The translations under genes were made by a program, and so were the position numbers. Source: Acidobacteriota bacterium (lineage in GTDB: Bacteria; Acidobacteriota; G020349885). Taken from it: DNA of 33,152 nucleotides. The notes beneath the pieces are model-generated. The model worked only from the letters and a program-made list of their open reading frames with translations, made no database searches and was not told the origin of the DNA. Below, piece after piece: positions 9,560 through 28,599 of this stretch (position 1 is its first letter; each line of letters begins with the position of its first letter). The DNA is taken from NCBI GenBank assembly GCA_020349885.1, contig CP070701.1, positions 1,571,594-1,604,745 of the forward strand, in the 5' to 3' direction.

Positions 9560-9593
9560 GCGACCGGCCGGAAGGCGCCCCCTACCTTATCCT

Positions 9594-9718
9594 GAGGAGG
9601 TGAACAGGTGAACAGGGGATCAGGAGACCGCAGGCGAACGGCTTACCTGGCATTGTATCCAAACAGTTGACGCTGTCGTCTTGCTCGCCTGCTCGACTGT
9701 TCCAATGCTCGCCTGCTC
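9594..9718. repeat. Inverted pair of degenerate 8-nt tandem arrays (array A)
   Basis: From 9594 to 9625 the sequence reads as four consecutive octamers fitting GANSAGGN (the middle two begin GAACAGG). From 9671 to 9718 six consecutive octamers in the opposite sense fit NNCTGYTC; two of them are identical copies of GCCTGCTC (9687 and 9711). The arms are separated by about 45 nt. The array fills the gap between the Clp-like stop codon and tRNA-Pro and contains no gene. Confidence 0.7.
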
Positions 9719-9720
9719 TA

Positions 9721-9820
<100 letters not shown>

Positions 9821-9900: not shown

Positions 9901-10263
9901 CTATCGCTGCTTGTAGTGTTGCTCGAGATAGCGTCCGAGCAACTGCCGGTCCCGGCCGTATAAGCGGGTGAACTGGAGCGCCAGACGGTAATCGTTACGT
10001 CCCTCGACGGGCTCTTGGGGCTTCACACGAACCACCTCCCCCTCCGCCGTGAGCCATTCCGACCGCTCGGGGAAGGGAAGCTCGAGCTTGACGGTCAGGT
10101 GAGTCGATTTCGGAATGTAACGGGAGACGCGGCAATGGAACCCTCCCAGGCTGAGATTGCCGGTGACCAAGGTGAGCTCCGTCCCCTCGGGGCCGGCGGT
10201 CTCCACCGTCAGGTGCGCGGGCACCCGCGGGTGTTGGCGTCGTTCCTTTTTTACATCCATCAT
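9901..10263 (-). CDS. Single-domain PilZ protein, probable c-di-GMP receptor
   Basis: At 120 residues the protein is essentially one PilZ domain. Both c-di-GMP-binding signatures are present: RQHPR (RxxxR) near residues 9-13 and NLSLGG ([D/N]xSxxG) near residues 36-41, followed by a beta-rich body. It should bind c-di-GMP and act as an adaptor, typically on motility, polysaccharide export or adhesion; no partner is encoded beside it. The second of two adjacent ATGs (10260) is better spaced from the AGGGAG Shine-Dalgarno than the first. It is clearly paralogous to the PilZ gene at 28070: both open with KERRxHPR and carry a TxGPEG stretch. Family assignment secure; role inferred. Confidence 0.9.
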   Translation of the reverse strand: MMDVKKERRQHPRVPAHLTVETAGPEGTELTLVTGNLSLGGFHCRVSRYIPKSTHLTVKLELPFPERSEWLTAEGEVVRVKPQEPVEGRNDYRLALQFTRLYGRDRQLLGRYLEQHYKQR

Positions 10264-16718: not shown

Positions 16719-17357
16719 CTACGCCCGGCCGTGCGTGTCGAGGATGTCGCGCGCGAGGCGCTCGGCCGCCTCGTCGTTTCCGAGGCGGTAGATTTCCAAA
16801 ATATCGCTCTCGATGAGGGCGTCGTAGAAGGCCACTCGGCGCTCGGCCGGAATCTTCTCCTGAATGTCGGTGCGCATTTTCTTCAAAAGCGCCGTGAACT
16901 TCGCGTACTCTTCGCCGAAGACTTTTTCCAGCATGAGGCGGACGCGGCGCGAGAGGCGCGGGGCCGAGCCGCCCGTGGCGACGGCGATCTGGAGTTCCCC
17001 CCGCCGCAGCACCGAGGGAACCACGAAGTGGCAGTGCTCGGGGTCGTCCGCGGCGTTGAGGAGAATTTTCTTTTCCTCGCAGAGGCGGTAGAGCTCGGGG
17101 TTGAGCGCGCGGTCGTCGGTCGCTCCCGCCACGAGAAAGACTCCTTCCAAATCGGAAGGAGCGAACGCCCGCGCGTGCCACACGATGCGGCCTTCCCCGG
17201 CGAGGCGGCGGATGTCGTCGTGCGCCTCGGGACTCACGACCGTGACGTGCGCGCCGGCTTCGAGAAGGGACAAAATTTTACGCGCGGCCACCTCGCCCCC
17301 GCCCACGACGAGCGCGCGCCGACCCTCGAGGTTGAGAAAAGCAGGGTAATAAGGCAT
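16719..17357 (-). CDS. Precorrin-2 dehydrogenase / sirohydrochlorin ferrochelatase-like protein (Met8/CysG N-terminal type)
   Basis: The 212-residue protein begins MPYYPAFLNLEGRRALVVGGGEVAARK, the NAD-binding Rossmann motif of Met8p and the CysG N-terminal domain (GGGEVA at 19-24). LNAADDPEHCHFVVPS places Asp104 where CysG has its catalytic Asp, and ATGGSAPRLSRRVR (127-140) matches the conserved anion-binding segment. It should oxidise precorrin-2 to sirohydrochlorin with NAD+, and may insert iron to give siroheme, in the cytoplasm. The uroporphyrinogen methyltransferase domain of full CysG is absent and no other heme gene is in the window. It lies downstream of the two TlpA-like genes on the same strand, next to heptamer array B, and has no visible Shine-Dalgarno. 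Confidence 0.92.
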   Translation of the reverse strand: MPYYPAFLNLEGRRALVVGGGEVAARKILSLLEAGAHVTVVSPEAHDDIRRLAGEGRIVWHARAFAPSDLEGVFLVAGATDDRALNPELYRLCEEKKILLNAADDPEHCHFVVPSVLRRGELQIAVATGGSAPRLSRRVRLMLEKVFGEEYAKFTALLKKMRTDIQEKIPAERRVAFYDALIESDILEIYRLGNDEAAERLARDILDTHGRA

Positions 17358-17361
17358 TGCC

Positions 17362-17439
17362 AGCGGTTAGCCGTTAGCTATTAGCAGTTAGCAAGAGCTC
17401 CTTCTTCTAACGGCCGACGGCCAACTGCTAACGGCTTGC
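17362..17439. repeat. Inverted pair of degenerate 7-nt tandem arrays (array B)
   Basis: The plus strand carries four consecutive heptamers fitting AGCNNTT from 17362 to 17389, then, after about 15 nt, five heptamers of the opposite sense fitting NGCYAAC from 17405 to 17439. AGCCGTT and AGCAGTT occur in both arms. The array fills the gap between the TlpA stop codon (17440-17442) and the Met8-like start. Confidence 0.75.
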
Positions 17440-17982
17440 TTAAAGGAGCGCCTTGATTTCTTTCTCGAAGTCTTCCTTTCGGTGGGAGCCGACGAACCTG
17501 ACGCGCAGCTTGCCCTCGCGGTCAATCAGGAAGGAGGTGGGAATGTTGCGGGCGCCGCCGTAATCCCGCGCAATCTTGTAGGTGGGATCCATGGCGACGC
17601 GATAGTTGATGTTGTTCTTCTTGGCGAACTCGGCAAGTTTCTCCGGAGGCATTCGCCTGGGATTGTCCACCGAAAGGGAGATCACGGCAAGGTGTTTCTT
17701 GCCGTATTCCTCATGCAAGGAATTAAGATGGGGGATCTCTATGCGGCAGGGGCGGCACCACGTCGCCCAAAAGGTGAGGAGCACCACCTTGCCCCTGTAT
17801 TGCTTAAGGCTGAGTGGCTTGCCTTCCACGTCTTTGATTTCAAACTCCGGCGCCGGCAGCGGCTCCTTCAGGTACCCGATGACCGCCCACTGTTGGGACG
17901 CCGCAAGTACGGCGACCGCGAAGGCGAAAGCCGCCCATAGCTTCGACCGACTCATTCCTCTCGTTATGCGCTTCTGCAGCAT
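17440..17982 (-). CDS. TlpA/ResA-like membrane-anchored thioredoxin
   Basis: An N-terminal signal-anchor (about residues 13-35 of the 180-residue form) precedes an AhpC/TSA-type thioredoxin domain. The domain has FEIKDVEGKPLSLKQYRGKVVLLTFWATWCRPC with active site W75-C-R-P-C79, followed by the cis-Pro segment NIPTSFLIDREG. Such proteins reduce disulfides outside the cytoplasmic membrane, for example for cytochrome c maturation. ATG 17982 is chosen because AAGGA lies 7 nt upstream; GTG 18009 would add nine residues. It is a clear tandem paralogue of the C-terminal half of the next gene upstream and shares its promoter layout. Substrate unknown. Confidence 0.92.
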   Translation of the reverse strand: MLQKRITRGMSRSKLWAAFAFAVAVLAASQQWAVIGYLKEPLPAPEFEIKDVEGKPLSLKQYRGKVVLLTFWATWCRPCRIEIPHLNSLHEEYGKKHLAVISLSVDNPRRMPPEKLAEFAKKNNINYRVAMDPTYKIARDYGGARNIPTSFLIDREGKLRVRFVGSHRKEDFEKEIKALL

Positions 17983-18030
17983 TCCCTTATCCTTAAACGC
18001 CTCCCGCACCGTTTTATTTCCCGACCTTGC

Positions 18031-18059
18031 AGACTAATCCATCTGCAGCGAAAAGTCAA
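18031..18059 (-). promoter_or_regulatory. Promoter of the small tlpA-like gene
   Basis: On the minus strand, TTGACT (complement of 18054-18059), a 17-nt spacer and TAGTCT (complement of 18031-18036). The paralogue's upstream region keeps the same -35, spacing and near-identical -10 (TAGCCT), which strengthens both. Confidence 0.5.
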
Positions 18060-18081
18060 TGCCGACGGAGGGCAGGGGCCG

Positions 18082-18155
18082 GTTATCAGGGGTCAGTCGT
18101 CAGAAAAAGGAAGATTCGTTTAACTGGCCCCTGACGGCTGGTCCCTGATTACTGG
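18082..18155. repeat. Inverted pair of degenerate 7-nt tandem arrays (array C)
   Basis: Three heptamers ending in TCA (18082-18102) are followed by four heptamers of the opposite sense fitting TGRNNNC (18125-18152). Aligning arm 18082-18102 with the complement of 18132-18152 gives 17 of 21 identical bases, so a transcript would form an imperfect hairpin. It lies two bases before the stop codon of the TPR-TlpA gene, downstream of that gene. Confidence 0.75.
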
Positions 18156-18156
18156 T

Positions 18157-19359
18157 TTAGAGGAGCGTCTTGATCACTTCCTCGAACACTTCCTTGCGGC
18201 GGGAGCCGACGAACTTGGCCCGCAGCCGGCCCTGGCGGTCGATGATGAACGAGGTGGGAATGTTGCGGGCGCCCCCGTAATCCTGCACAACCTTGGCGGT
18301 CGCCATGGCGACGCGGTAGTCGATGTTTTTCTTCCTTACGAACTCGGTGAGCTTCGCCGGAGTCACCCTCATTGGGTTGTCCACCGAGAGGGAGATGACG
18401 GCGAAGCCCTTATCGCCGTACTCCTTTTGCAAGGCATTAAGATGTGGAATCTCCATGATGCAGGGGCCGCACCACGTCGCCCAAAACATGAGAAGCACCA
18501 CCTTGCCCCCGTATTGCGCGAGGCTGAGGGGCTTGCCTTCCAGGTCTTCGATTTCAAACGGCGGCGCAATCGGAGTCTCCGAAGTAAAGGGCTCCGGCGG
18601 AAGCTTTGTATCGGAGAGCTTCGGTGCGGGGCGCTGTCTCAGGGCGGCCAGCCTTTGCCGCTCCTTTTCCTCGTTTTCGAGCGCCGTCAATCTGAAAGCG
18701 CCGGGGTGAAGGCTGGGATCGAGAGACATCGCTTCGTCGCGCTCGCGGCGCGCCGTGTCCCAATCTCCGGCCTCGGCGCGGCGGTCACTCAGAACACGGT
18801 GCACCCTGGCCGTCCAGGGCCGCAATTCCTGCGATTCCGGGTTGAGGCGCGCGGCCTCTTCAAAAAAAGCAAGGGCCATCTCGGGATCGTCCTGGAGGAA
18901 CGCGAGCGTTCCCCTGGCGAAGGACAGGCCGAAGCGCGCCTTCTCGTCATCCGGGCGCAGTGCAAGCGCGCGGGTGAAGGCGTCGAGCGCCTTCGGCTGG
19001 TTTTCGGGCACGCGACTGAGAAGCAGCGCCTCGCCCTCGGCGACGAGGCGGCCGGCGACGCGCCCTTCCATCTCGGCCAGGAAAGAAGCGTCGCCTCCCT
19101 CGGCTCCGGCCGCGCGCCTGGCCCAAAAAAGGGCGCTCGCCTCCGTTGGCTCGATGAAATTTCCCGCCGCGAACGCCTCCTCGGCCAGGCGCCGAAAGTC
19201 GCGCACCGCGACCTCCGATTCCTTTTCCTTCGGGTATAGCCATTCTAGAAAGCCTTGCTCGTGGAGGTAGAAAGCCGTACCGGCGAGAAGCGCGAGCGCC
19301 GCCGCGAGTCCTGCGGCAGCCACGACCATCGGTCGTTTCCACGGGTTCGTTTTTCCCAT
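18157..19359 (-). CDS. Membrane-anchored TPR-thioredoxin (TlpA-like) fusion
   Basis: This 400-residue protein has an N-terminal transmembrane anchor (about residues 9-32). A helical region with TPR-like pairs follows (about 50-215; KALDAFTRALALRPDD and MALAFFEEAARLNPES are the clearest). After a Pro-rich linker comes a TlpA/ResA thioredoxin domain (about 265-400) with W296-C-G-P-C300 and NIPTSFIIDRQG. It should act as a periplasm-facing disulfide reductase whose TPRs recruit a partner. The C-terminal domain is strikingly similar to the next gene downstream (VVLLxFWATWC, MEIPHLNxL, FAVISLSVDNP, DYGGARNIPTSF), so the pair arose by duplication, with gain or loss of the TPR region. A good AAGGAA Shine-Dalgarno precedes ATG 19359. 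Confidence 0.92.
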   Translation of the reverse strand: MGKTNPWKRPMVVAAAGLAAALALLAGTAFYLHEQGFLEWLYPKEKESEVAVRDFRRLAEEAFAAGNFIEPTEASALFWARRAAGAEGGDASFLAEMEGRVAGRLVAEGEALLLSRVPENQPKALDAFTRALALRPDDEKARFGLSFARGTLAFLQDDPEMALAFFEEAARLNPESQELRPWTARVHRVLSDRRAEAGDWDTARRERDEAMSLDPSLHPGAFRLTALENEEKERQRLAALRQRPAPKLSDTKLPPEPFTSETPIAPPFEIEDLEGKPLSLAQYGGKVVLLMFWATWCGPCIMEIPHLNALQKEYGDKGFAVISLSVDNPMRVTPAKLTEFVRKKNIDYRVAMATAKVVQDYGGARNIPTSFIIDRQGRLRAKFVGSRRKEVFEEVIKTLL

Positions 19360-23094: not shown

Positions 23095-23132
23095 CCTGAC
23101 TGGCCCCTAACGGCTGGCCTCTGACCCCTAAC
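23095..23132. repeat. Degenerate 7-nt tandem array (array D, single arm)
   Basis: Five consecutive heptamers fitting about NRCNNCT run from 23095 to 23129, just after the EamA stop and just before the tRNA-Ser 3' end. On the minus strand the units include AGCCGTT and AGGGGCC, words also present in arrays B and C. No inverted partner arm is visible. Confidence 0.6.
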
Positions 23133-23136
23133 TTCG

Positions 23137-23224
23137 TGGCGGAGGGAGAGGGATTCGAACCCCCGGTCCCTTGCGGGACTCCGGTTTTCAAGACCGGTGC
23201 CTTCAACCGCTCGGCCATCCCTCC
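23137..23224 (-). tRNA. tRNA-Ser (anticodon TGA)
   Basis: On the minus strand the acceptor stem GGAGGGA pairs with TCCCTCC. The D-arm begins GGCCGAGCGGTTGAAGGC, and the anticodon stem CCGGT/ACCGG closes loop CTTGAAA (anticodon TGA). A long variable arm with a GTCCCGCAAGGGAC hairpin marks the class II tRNA, then a T-arm GGTTCGAATCC, discriminator G and an encoded CCA (23137-23139). Length 88 nt. It decodes UCA and related serine codons. Confidence 0.97.
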
Positions 23225-23235
23225 GGCCAATTTCC

Positions 23236-23241
23236 ATTATA
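23236..23241 (-). promoter_or_regulatory. -10 element of tRNA-Ser
   Basis: A perfect TATAAT on the minus strand, 11 nt before the tRNA 5' end. The same 14-nt flank is repeated upstream of the broken copy (23406-23419). No convincing -35 is seen at the right distance. Confidence 0.55.
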
Positions 23242-23287: not shown

Positions 23288-23402
23288 GCGGGACTCCGGG
23301 TTTTCCGCCGGAGGCGGATATGTCTCCGCCGAAGGACGGACTCGTCCTCTGGCGAGTTTTGGCGGACAAGACCGGTGACCTCAACCGCTCGGCCATCCCT
23401 CC
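23288..23402 (-). pseudogene. Broken duplicate of tRNA-Ser, split in the anticodon by a 62-nt insertion
   Basis: Bases 23367-23419 repeat, with few changes, the 5' half of tRNA-Ser plus its -10 flank: acceptor strand GGAGGGA, D-arm, anticodon stem and CTTG. Bases 23288-23304 repeat the start of the 3' half (AAAACC, GGAGTCCCGC). Between them, 62 nt (23305-23366) interrupt the loop between anticodon positions 35 and 36. The 3' half is also cut: T-arm, second acceptor strand and CCA are missing. It cannot make a normal tRNA. Functional intron splicing is unlikely because the 3' part is absent. Confidence 0.75.
23305..23366. mobile_element. 62-nt palindrome-rich insertion in the tRNA-Ser copy (MITE-like)
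   Basis: The segment begins CCGCC and ends GGCGGA, so its ends are inverted. It contains several internal hairpins: CCGCC-GGA-GGCGG, GGCGGA...TCCGCC and AGGACG-gact-CGTCCT. No coding capacity. Such structure suggests a small non-autonomous palindromic element, but no target-site duplication is evident. Confidence 0.45.
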
Positions 23403-23476
23403 GTCCAATTTCCATTATAAGTCCGGAAGGATGTGCAGGAGGACCATTCCCTGCGCTTTTCTCACCGTTTTGTTCA

Positions 23477-27338: not shown

Positions 27339-28073
27339 ATGCCCGCCAAAGCCAACGTCAAACCGTCCAGAGGGTCTCTGGAAGACAAGCCGTTTCCAAT
27401 TCTGCTCTGTGAGCTCTACCGCGGCCGCTCTTCGGGCACCGTGGTTCTTCGGCGCGACGAGACGGTCAAGGAGATTTACTTCGAGAAGGGCCATGTGAAA
27501 TTCGCAACCTCGAACGATCCGGACGAGCGTTTCGGCCAGATTCTATGCCGCACCGGGAAGCTCACCATCGGGCAGCTCGAATACGCGCTGGAGTCGGCCA
27601 AGAAGCAGGAGGGGCGTTTGGGAAAAGTCTTGGTCGAGGCGGGTTTTTTGAAGCCGCCGGATTTGTTCCAGGCCTTGCGCGAACAGATTAAGGAGATTGT
27701 CGTCGGAGCCTTCCCTTGGGCTTCGGGAACGTTTGAAGTGACCAAAGGAAACCCTCGCGCGGGCGAGGCCGTCAAGCTTTCGATGGACGTAGGCGAGCTC
27801 ATTCGCCAGGGCATGCGCCGCATTTCCGATCCCATGCTTCTGATGCGCGGCATCGGCTCCATGGACACGGTGCTCACGATGAGGCGGGACGCCATGACGG
27901 CCGTGAAGGAGTTTCGTCCCGGAAGCAAGGAGCAGCGCATCCTGCAAATGGCCAAGGGCGGCGTTCGCCTGCGCGACATGTGCAACACGCTCCCCTACCC
28001 GGCGGTCGAAACCTGTCAGCTCGTATACGGCCTTCTCGTGTTCGGCGTTTTGGAAAAGAAGGAAACGCTATGA
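27339..28073 (+). CDS. DUF4388 (PATAN-type) domain protein
   Basis: The 244-residue protein starts with a DUF4388/PATAN-like domain (about 12-100): PFPILLCELYRGRSSGTVVLRR, KEIYFEKGHVKFATSNDPDERFGQILCRTGKLTIGQL. A segment resembling the N-terminal domain of type II/IV secretion ATPases follows (GRLGKVLVEAGFLKPPDLFQALREQIKEIV), then a helical C-terminus. DUF4388 proteins are common in multi-domain signalling proteins and some bind response regulators or affect gliding and pili. No signal peptide is visible; it is cytoplasmic. The stop codon overlaps the PilZ start as ATGA, so the two are translationally coupled and probably work together. Family fairly sure; function inferred only from context. 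Confidence 0.82.
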   Translation: MPAKANVKPSRGSLEDKPFPILLCELYRGRSSGTVVLRRDETVKEIYFEKGHVKFATSNDPDERFGQILCRTGKLTIGQLEYALESAKKQEGRLGKVLVEAGFLKPPDLFQALREQIKEIVVGAFPWASGTFEVTKGNPRAGEAVKLSMDVGELIRQGMRRISDPMLLMRGIGSMDTVLTMRRDAMTAVKEFRPGSKEQRILQMAKGGVRLRDMCNTLPYPAVETCQLVYGLLVFGVLEKKETL

Positions 28074-28417
28074 AGGAGCGCCGCGAGCATCCGCGGTTCC
28101 CTGCGAGGCTTCCGGTAAAAACCACCGGGCCCGAGGGGGAGTTCGAACTGGTGACGGGAGACGTGAGCCTCGGCGGCATTAAATGCCATACCTCGCACCA
28201 CATCCCTGAGATGACGCGCATGGCGTTGAGGATTGAGCTTCCCCTCGAGGAAGGCTCGGAATGGATTACCCCGAAAGGCGTCGTGGTGCGCATCGAGCCG
28301 TCGGAGCCCGTTCCCGGCCACAGCGATTACCGCGTGGCGCTCTTTTTCCTGGAGTTAAGTGACGCCGACCGCGCCAAGCTCTCGCGCTACCTCGACCGCC
28401 ACCACATCATGAAGTAA
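28070..28417 (+). CDS. Single-domain PilZ protein, coupled to the DUF4388 gene
   Basis: The 115-residue protein has PilZ signatures RREHPR (RxxxR) at residues 4-9 and DVSLGG near 31-36. Start ATG 28070 overlaps the upstream TGA and has AAGGA 7 nt before it; an upstream in-frame ATG (27980) would only add residues out of the PilZ fold. It should bind c-di-GMP in the cytoplasm. It is paralogous to the PilZ gene at 9901-10263 (shared KERRxHPR, GPEG, LVTG, SLGG and SEW.T motifs). The coupled DUF4388 partner suggests the pair reads a second-messenger signal and relays it to motility or surface structures. Confidence 0.9.
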   Translation: MKERREHPRFPARLPVKTTGPEGEFELVTGDVSLGGIKCHTSHHIPEMTRMALRIELPLEEGSEWITPKGVVVRIEPSEPVPGHSDYRVALFFLELSDADRAKLSRYLDRHHIMK

Positions 28418-28442
28418 CCTTCGATAAAGCCATCCGAATTGA

Positions 28443-28523
28443 GTTCGGAAAGTGCTGCAGGTGCCGCAGGTGCGGAAGATTTGAACCCCTATGCACTTAC
28501 CGTACTTTCTGCACCTTCTGCAC
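28443..28523. repeat. Inverted pair of degenerate 9-nt tandem arrays (array E)
   Basis: Four consecutive nonamers on the plus strand (28443-28478) fit GTKCNGMAR. After nine bases, four more in the opposite sense (28488-28523) fit NTTCTGCAC in the last two units, with two more degenerate ones. The two 36-nt arms could pair into an imperfect hairpin. It sits between the convergent PilZ and pyrE genes. Confidence 0.7.
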
Positions 28524-28599
28524 GCTTTTAACCATCCACTACGGATGCGCCCACGGAAACGGCGTATATAGAAAACTTTTTCAGTGGTTTCACAAAACC

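Follow-up and report, generated by a model that had tools for sequence, protein, structure and literature searches.

The window that we analysed, a stretch of 33,152 nucleotides, is part of a single-contig Acidobacteriota genome of 2.40 Mb and carries, among other genes, a sirohaem synthase-like gene followed by a small tlpA-like gene and a large TPR-TlpA gene (Table 1). The C-terminal domain of the large protein is 70% identical to the adjacent small TlpA, and the two genes are paralogs. Because both are encoded on the minus strand, each of two repeat arrays, here called B and C, starts directly past the stop codon of one paralog. The arrays behind the two stops (paralog pair at 17440-19359) belong to different unit classes. 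Elsewhere in the window, a direct repeat of 53 nt (23189-23241 and 23367-23419, 94% identical) copies part of the tRNA gene at 23140-23224 together with its flank, an arrangement that might be the remnant of an integration site. Two further stretches, 9976-10248 and 28073-28342, lie in inverted orientation with 65% identity, and since the first overlaps a PilZ-domain gene (9901-10263) they likely represent two related PilZ-like genes.

Table 1. Arrays of the window and the genes next to arrays B and C (window coordinates)
Feature	Position	Strand	Units or domains	Remarks
Period-8 array with inverted arm	9588..9722; arms about 9588-9635 and 9680-9722		AGGTGAAC / TGCTCGCC arms	
Precorrin-2 dehydrogenase/sirohaem synthase-like gene	16719..17357	-	Pfam PF13241, PF14824, PF10414	array B reaches its start codon
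Array B, overall	17359-17439			two arms, period 7
Array B, left arm	17359..17393 (about)	+	GTTAGCN type: GCCAGCG GTTAGCC GTTAGCT ATTAGCA GTTAGCA	TRF period 7; lag-7 match 21/28, p 0.001
Array B, right (inverted) arm	17407..17439	-		inverted repeat I1-I5; two-arm score 52, shuffle maximum 34
Small tlpA-like gene (AhpC-TSA/redoxin family)	17440..18009	-	Pfam PF00578	between B and C
Array C, overall	18073-18156			two arms, noisier at period 7
Array C, left arm	18073..18103 (about)	+	TCAGNNN type	inverted repeats I1-I3; two-arm score p<0.005
Array C, right (inverted) arm	18121..18156	-		TRF period 14 = 2x7; lag-14 p 0.002
Large TPR-TlpA gene	18157..19359	-		array C after its stop codon
Single-arm relative of array C	23096..23131	-	GGTCAGAGGCCAGCCGTTAG type	pattern match at G000:1594700 (G000, this genome)
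Period-9 array with inverted arm	28439..28532		GGTGCNGAA type	

Both B and C consist of tandem heptamers in two arms that face each other at close range, as the initial annotation had described. The 82 nt that separate the stop of the small tlpA-like gene from the start codon of the sirohaem synthase-like gene are taken up by array B, whose right arm begins, in the coding-strand view, immediately past the stop; when this spacer was shuffled 1000 times with its dinucleotides preserved, the lag-7 match of B was never equalled. The right arm of array C begins in the same way immediately past the stop of the large TPR-TlpA gene. The strict 7-nt period claimed for both gaps holds well for B; in C the match at lag 7 alone is weak (15/28, p 0.025) and that at lag 14 is stronger, because its units alternate between two versions. 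Consensus and fixed period are thus pronounced in B and less so in C, although the two-arm score of C (42, against a shuffle maximum of 34) exceeds the controls too, and its arms are complementary at 20 of 25 positions, close to the 17 of 21 first counted. A transcript of either array is predicted to fold into a stem of stacked units, in line with the initial reading, with folding z-scores of -2.9/-3.0 for B and of -6.3 (plus strand) and -3.8 for C. Neither has the G tracts of a quadruplex-forming repeat, the units of B being GTTAGCN and those of C holding short G runs only. A search of Rfam at gathering thresholds returned three tRNAs and no match at B or C. The role in termination that had been suggested finds no support here: neither array shows the pattern of an intrinsic terminator (a GC-rich stem and then a T run), no T run directly follows the stem in the sequence past B and C, and in relatives such arrays lie inside ribosomal-protein operons and within valS.

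How the two arms relate to each other was addressed by permuting the units of one arm. Pairing was equal or better after permutation, both in 14 arrays of this genome (mean rank 0.61, Fisher p 0.81) and in 44 arrays of relatives (mean rank 0.72). Neither arm repeats in mirror image the succession of variants seen in the other, as would be expected had one been copied from its partner or were selection maintaining a specific stem. The arms therefore match as units, without register-specific pairing, and are not a copied palindrome, since permuting the units of one arm leaves the pairing unweakened. This excludes a single decayed palindrome as well as the copying of one arm from the other. The first description of B and C as neither a simple microsatellite nor one ancient palindrome was therefore right; the inverted pairing that it noted is real at the level of units and not of whole arms, and its proposal of hairpin-templated copying is not supported if meant to apply across an arm. 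At three loci (L021:7019-7133, L022 near 7820 and L107:3586-3687) the two arms come from different unit classes and do not pair. A stop-codon cassette, in which the units would give stops in all frames, was also considered and abandoned, several unit classes containing no stop codon.

Arrays of this kind recur throughout the genome and in its phylum, mostly in intergenic positions, so that the absence of other loci, which the initial annotation had named as a refutation, does not apply. The two-arm periodicity score identified 24 intergenic arrays, with periods of 7, 8 and 9, against none in shuffled controls, in a sample of about 0.83 Mb that includes stretches picked for holding matches, and unbiased counts were accordingly kept separate. 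In the unbiased intergenic sample (293 regions, 61 kb), the autocorrelation that the initial annotation had called for gave lag-7 matches of at least 20/28 in 9 regions and in none of 20 shuffles; lags 8, 9 and 14 likewise rose above the shuffles, and lags 10, 11, 13 and 16 showed no excess in the same 293 regions. Period 7 is thus in excess as anticipated, but the periodicity is not restricted to it, periods 8 and 9 being in excess as well. Both are present within the window: the array at 9588-9722 is periodic at lag 8 (p 0.005) with a two-arm score of 50 against a shuffle maximum of 36, and that at 28439-28532 at lag 9 (p 0.003) with a score of 49 against 33, some eight more arrays resembling the latter being found elsewhere in the genome. 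The classes of units include GTTAGCN, TCAGNNN, GGTCATN, GTCAACN, GAGTAAG and GTATNNN at 7 nt, CGGTTACT and AGGTGAAC at 8 nt, and GGTGCGGAA and CGGCAAAAG at 9 nt. At the period-9 loci the plus arm precedes the minus arm in nine cases and follows it in none, and the orientation of the arms looks fixed within a unit class. Shuffles and strand pairing served as controls because reversed patterns proved unclean in the pattern search: one reversed pattern, CGATTGN, is itself abundant in some relatives, and the reversed period-9 pattern gave 67 matches, nearly as many as the 75 of the pattern itself. A preference for the neighbourhood of stop codons is suggested in this genome by the mean distance from array to stop, which is below that of random placement, but not by the median (P 0.17); by rough gene calls, divergent genes flank 7 of the 30 arrays. 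Three intergenic regions (L022:8086-8368, L030:9174-9363 and L036:7074-7199) have a different dispersed repeat in common, which is AT-rich and of the form CCACTAAGTGG...AAAGGGTTTTTT.

Some of these arrays are related to each other beyond their units. Two unlinked loci, L006 and L007, have arm, loop and arm in common (GTTAGCGACTGGAAAATTTTAAATTCCGCTCGCCAACGGC...) together with a short stretch to the right, whereas their left flanks differ and the flanks as a whole are largely different; three others (L010, L015 and L018) have a second arm-loop unit in common, though not all to the same extent. Whole hairpins, arm, loop and arm together, have thus been copied to other loci. No target-site duplication was seen, and no spreading enzyme was identified: PF01797, the Y1/HUH family of REP-type transposases, has no match in this genome, which rules out a REP/RAYT origin here, while among the relatives it has 10-11 matches per genome in genus g34, 9 in G120 and 5 in G005.

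The fate of such elements at a fixed site can be followed in g34, a genus of the same phylum of which 41 genomes were searched; the nearest genomes compared share only the phylum with ours, and the comparison concerns sites other than those of B and C. In the rpsS-rplV and rpsL-rpsG spacers, between strongly conserved flanks, the arrays are made of GTNAGCN units in G180 and of GTNAATN units in G172, a switch that covers all units of both arms, with the phase kept and the arms of equal or similar length. The rpsL-rpsG spacer of G148 carries GTCAGTA, and at one site that genome has a nearly pure expansion of GTCAGTG to about ten units. Across species, the spacers at tuf, rpsS-rplV and rpsL-rpsG measure either at most 30 nt (13) or at least 49 nt (52); sister species have the same operon spacers at 1-11 nt and without a hairpin. 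Among the long spacers, 45 of 51 tested score more than 3 SD as two-arm arrays, a figure that takes in a few plain palindromes, as the score includes a complementarity term, and period 7 came out best of six in 42. A second kind of site lies in valS, where a linker measures 36-42 nt in 16 of the 30 genomes fetched and is intermediate in two (57 and 66 nt), and where 12 of the 30 carry long in-frame inserts at one spot. Nine of these inserts are arrays, of several classes, so that arrays do enter coding DNA in the g34 relatives. The other three, likewise in frame, are copies of a non-periodic palindrome of the GCGGACACTC...GTCCGC type (L208, L214 and L215, from G140, G201 and G037). Class replacement was thus observed in g34 only, not at B and C, and the same is true of insertion in frame.

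The elements described here resemble several known families and differ from each of them. Rickettsia palindromic elements are palindromic inserts of spacers and, with the reading frame kept, of protein genes; among our arrays, in-frame copies were found in the g34 relatives only and not for B or C, and the Rickettsia elements are sequence families not known for a 7-nt periodicity. REP and REPIN elements are likewise short palindromes dispersed between genes, but they come with RAYT transposases, and the present genome is without a Y1 transposase. Other close counterparts are heptamer repeats: (i) In Xanthomonas, facing GGGAATC arrays have been reported in 70 and 75 cases, facing heptamer arrays lie near the preceding ORF, and heptamer arrays also occur in Nostoc (PMC4692102). 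Dispersed intergenic copies are common to those genomes and to ours, but the GGGAATC and GGGGA(C/T)T repeats consist, in any one genome, of a single G-rich unit that could form quadruplexes (PMC4692102), whereas here many classes and periods of 7, 8 and 9 occur together, neither B nor C is a G-tract repeat, and in the genomes of relatives one class takes the place of another at a given site. (ii) The P6b stem of the Nostoc trnL (UAA) intron consists of heptamers that complement each other, TDNGATT in Class I and NNTGAGT in Class II, and shares with our arrays both this architecture and the repeated replacement of classes at a fixed site (PMC4476775); it is however a single locus in a group I intron, while the present elements are dispersed over the spacers of a whole genome and, among relatives, also occur within coding DNA. 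(iii) The STRR, such as the TAACTGA direct repeats of Cyanobacteria and Beggiatoaceae, are also fixed-period heptamer arrays between genes, and the analogy with them drawn initially is apt. In the main these repeats are direct, the Guaymas genome having 169 direct sets and a single indirect repeat, and most lie upstream of start codons (PMC4679880), whereas our arrays have facing arms and, in the case of B and C, lie directly past stop codons. The accompanying remark, that heptamer repeats are not usually paired in inverted orientation, is contradicted by the Xanthomonas and Nostoc trnL cases (PMC4692102, PMC4476775). The present arrays differ from these kinds in the coexistence of many classes with periods of 7, 8 and 9, the replacement of classes at several operon sites, and the in-frame copies at one valS site; no description of this combination was found in the open-licence literature.

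Our preferred reading, which we hold to be probable though by no means assured, is that arrays B and C each represent one copy of a dispersed type of hairpin that spreads whole, is tolerated where it is harmless and is then altered by turnover of units and replacement of classes, any effect on the RNA being one on stability or processing. The element measures about 70-100 bp and is composed of an arm, a loop and an inverted arm, each arm made of degenerate units of 7, 8 or 9 nt belonging to one class, and its mode of life would likely be that of a small palindromic repeat. Entire elements would reach new sites, by a route of spreading that we infer, and would persist where the harm is slight, often immediately behind a gene's stop and now and then, among relatives, within the reading frame at a protein loop; later change would come from the gain or loss of units by slippage and from replacement by another class. 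In RNA the element would fold, downstream of the gene, into an imperfect stem whose units are stacked, and if this stem matters, it would most likely be for mRNA stability or for processing between co-transcribed genes and not for termination; any such effect is probably weak. That the hairpins are instead functional RNAs, serving in 3'-end protection, intercistronic processing or attenuation, with the structure under selection and the sequence free to drift or be replaced, is a reading we regard as unlikely. In its favour, the 51 operon spacers of g34 have a median folding z-score of -4.1 (90% below -2), array C folds at -6.3, and the stem is kept while the sequence classes change; yet the corresponding spacers of sister species do with 1-11 nt and no hairpin, the order of units is not mirrored between arms, the two arms of some loci belong to different classes and are unable to pair, and copies lie within the coding sequence of valS.

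Ordinary replication slippage, which would make the arrays decayed tandem repeats without a role and their inverted arms a side effect of template switching or of fold-back by the polymerase, is in our view distinctly improbable as a full account. Heptamers are the commonest repeat of 5-11 nt in most bacterial genomes and polymerase slippage has been proposed as their source (discussed in PMC4679880 and PMC4692102), and the GTCAGTG expansion of G148 speaks for it. Alone, however, it leaves unexplained the constant facing orientation of the nine period-9 loci, the concerted change of class in both arms and the copies of arm, loop and arm at unlinked loci, and fold-back copying predicts a mirrored order of units that is not present. 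We give still less credit to the idea that a protein with a footprint of 7-9 nt, binding DNA or RNA, lands on each unit and is seated both ways by the facing arms: the core of the unit is kept while variation falls at fixed positions, the arms match unit by unit, and CspB can bind heptamer direct repeats at one protein per heptamer (cited in PMC4679880), but many classes and three periods in one genome are hard to square with one protein, as is the replacement of classes at fixed sites between sister species. Our preferred reading has points against it too: neither a spreading enzyme nor a target-site duplication was found, the stop-codon preference in this genome is not clear, class replacement was observed in g34 only, and the switches between G180 and G172, in which phase and near-equal arm length are kept, fit conversion in place as well as or better than re-insertion. 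The stronger claim, that every unit in either arm is actively overwritten (GTNAGCN to GTNAATN) while phase, unit number and site are kept, strikes us as very doubtful; if true, it would imply machinery that copies in steps of 7 nt, or a template acting in trans.

Under the reading of a dispersed hairpin class, the arrays bear on how bacterial heptamer repeats are understood. These are usually treated as direct repeats of a single word; here they are modular hairpins, and a single genome uses many words and three periods. The findings caution against taking such hairpins for conserved regulatory RNAs. Since the word carried by one ribosomal-operon spacer or one valS loop of g34 varies between sister species, the origin and turnover of these repeats become testable at orthologous sites.
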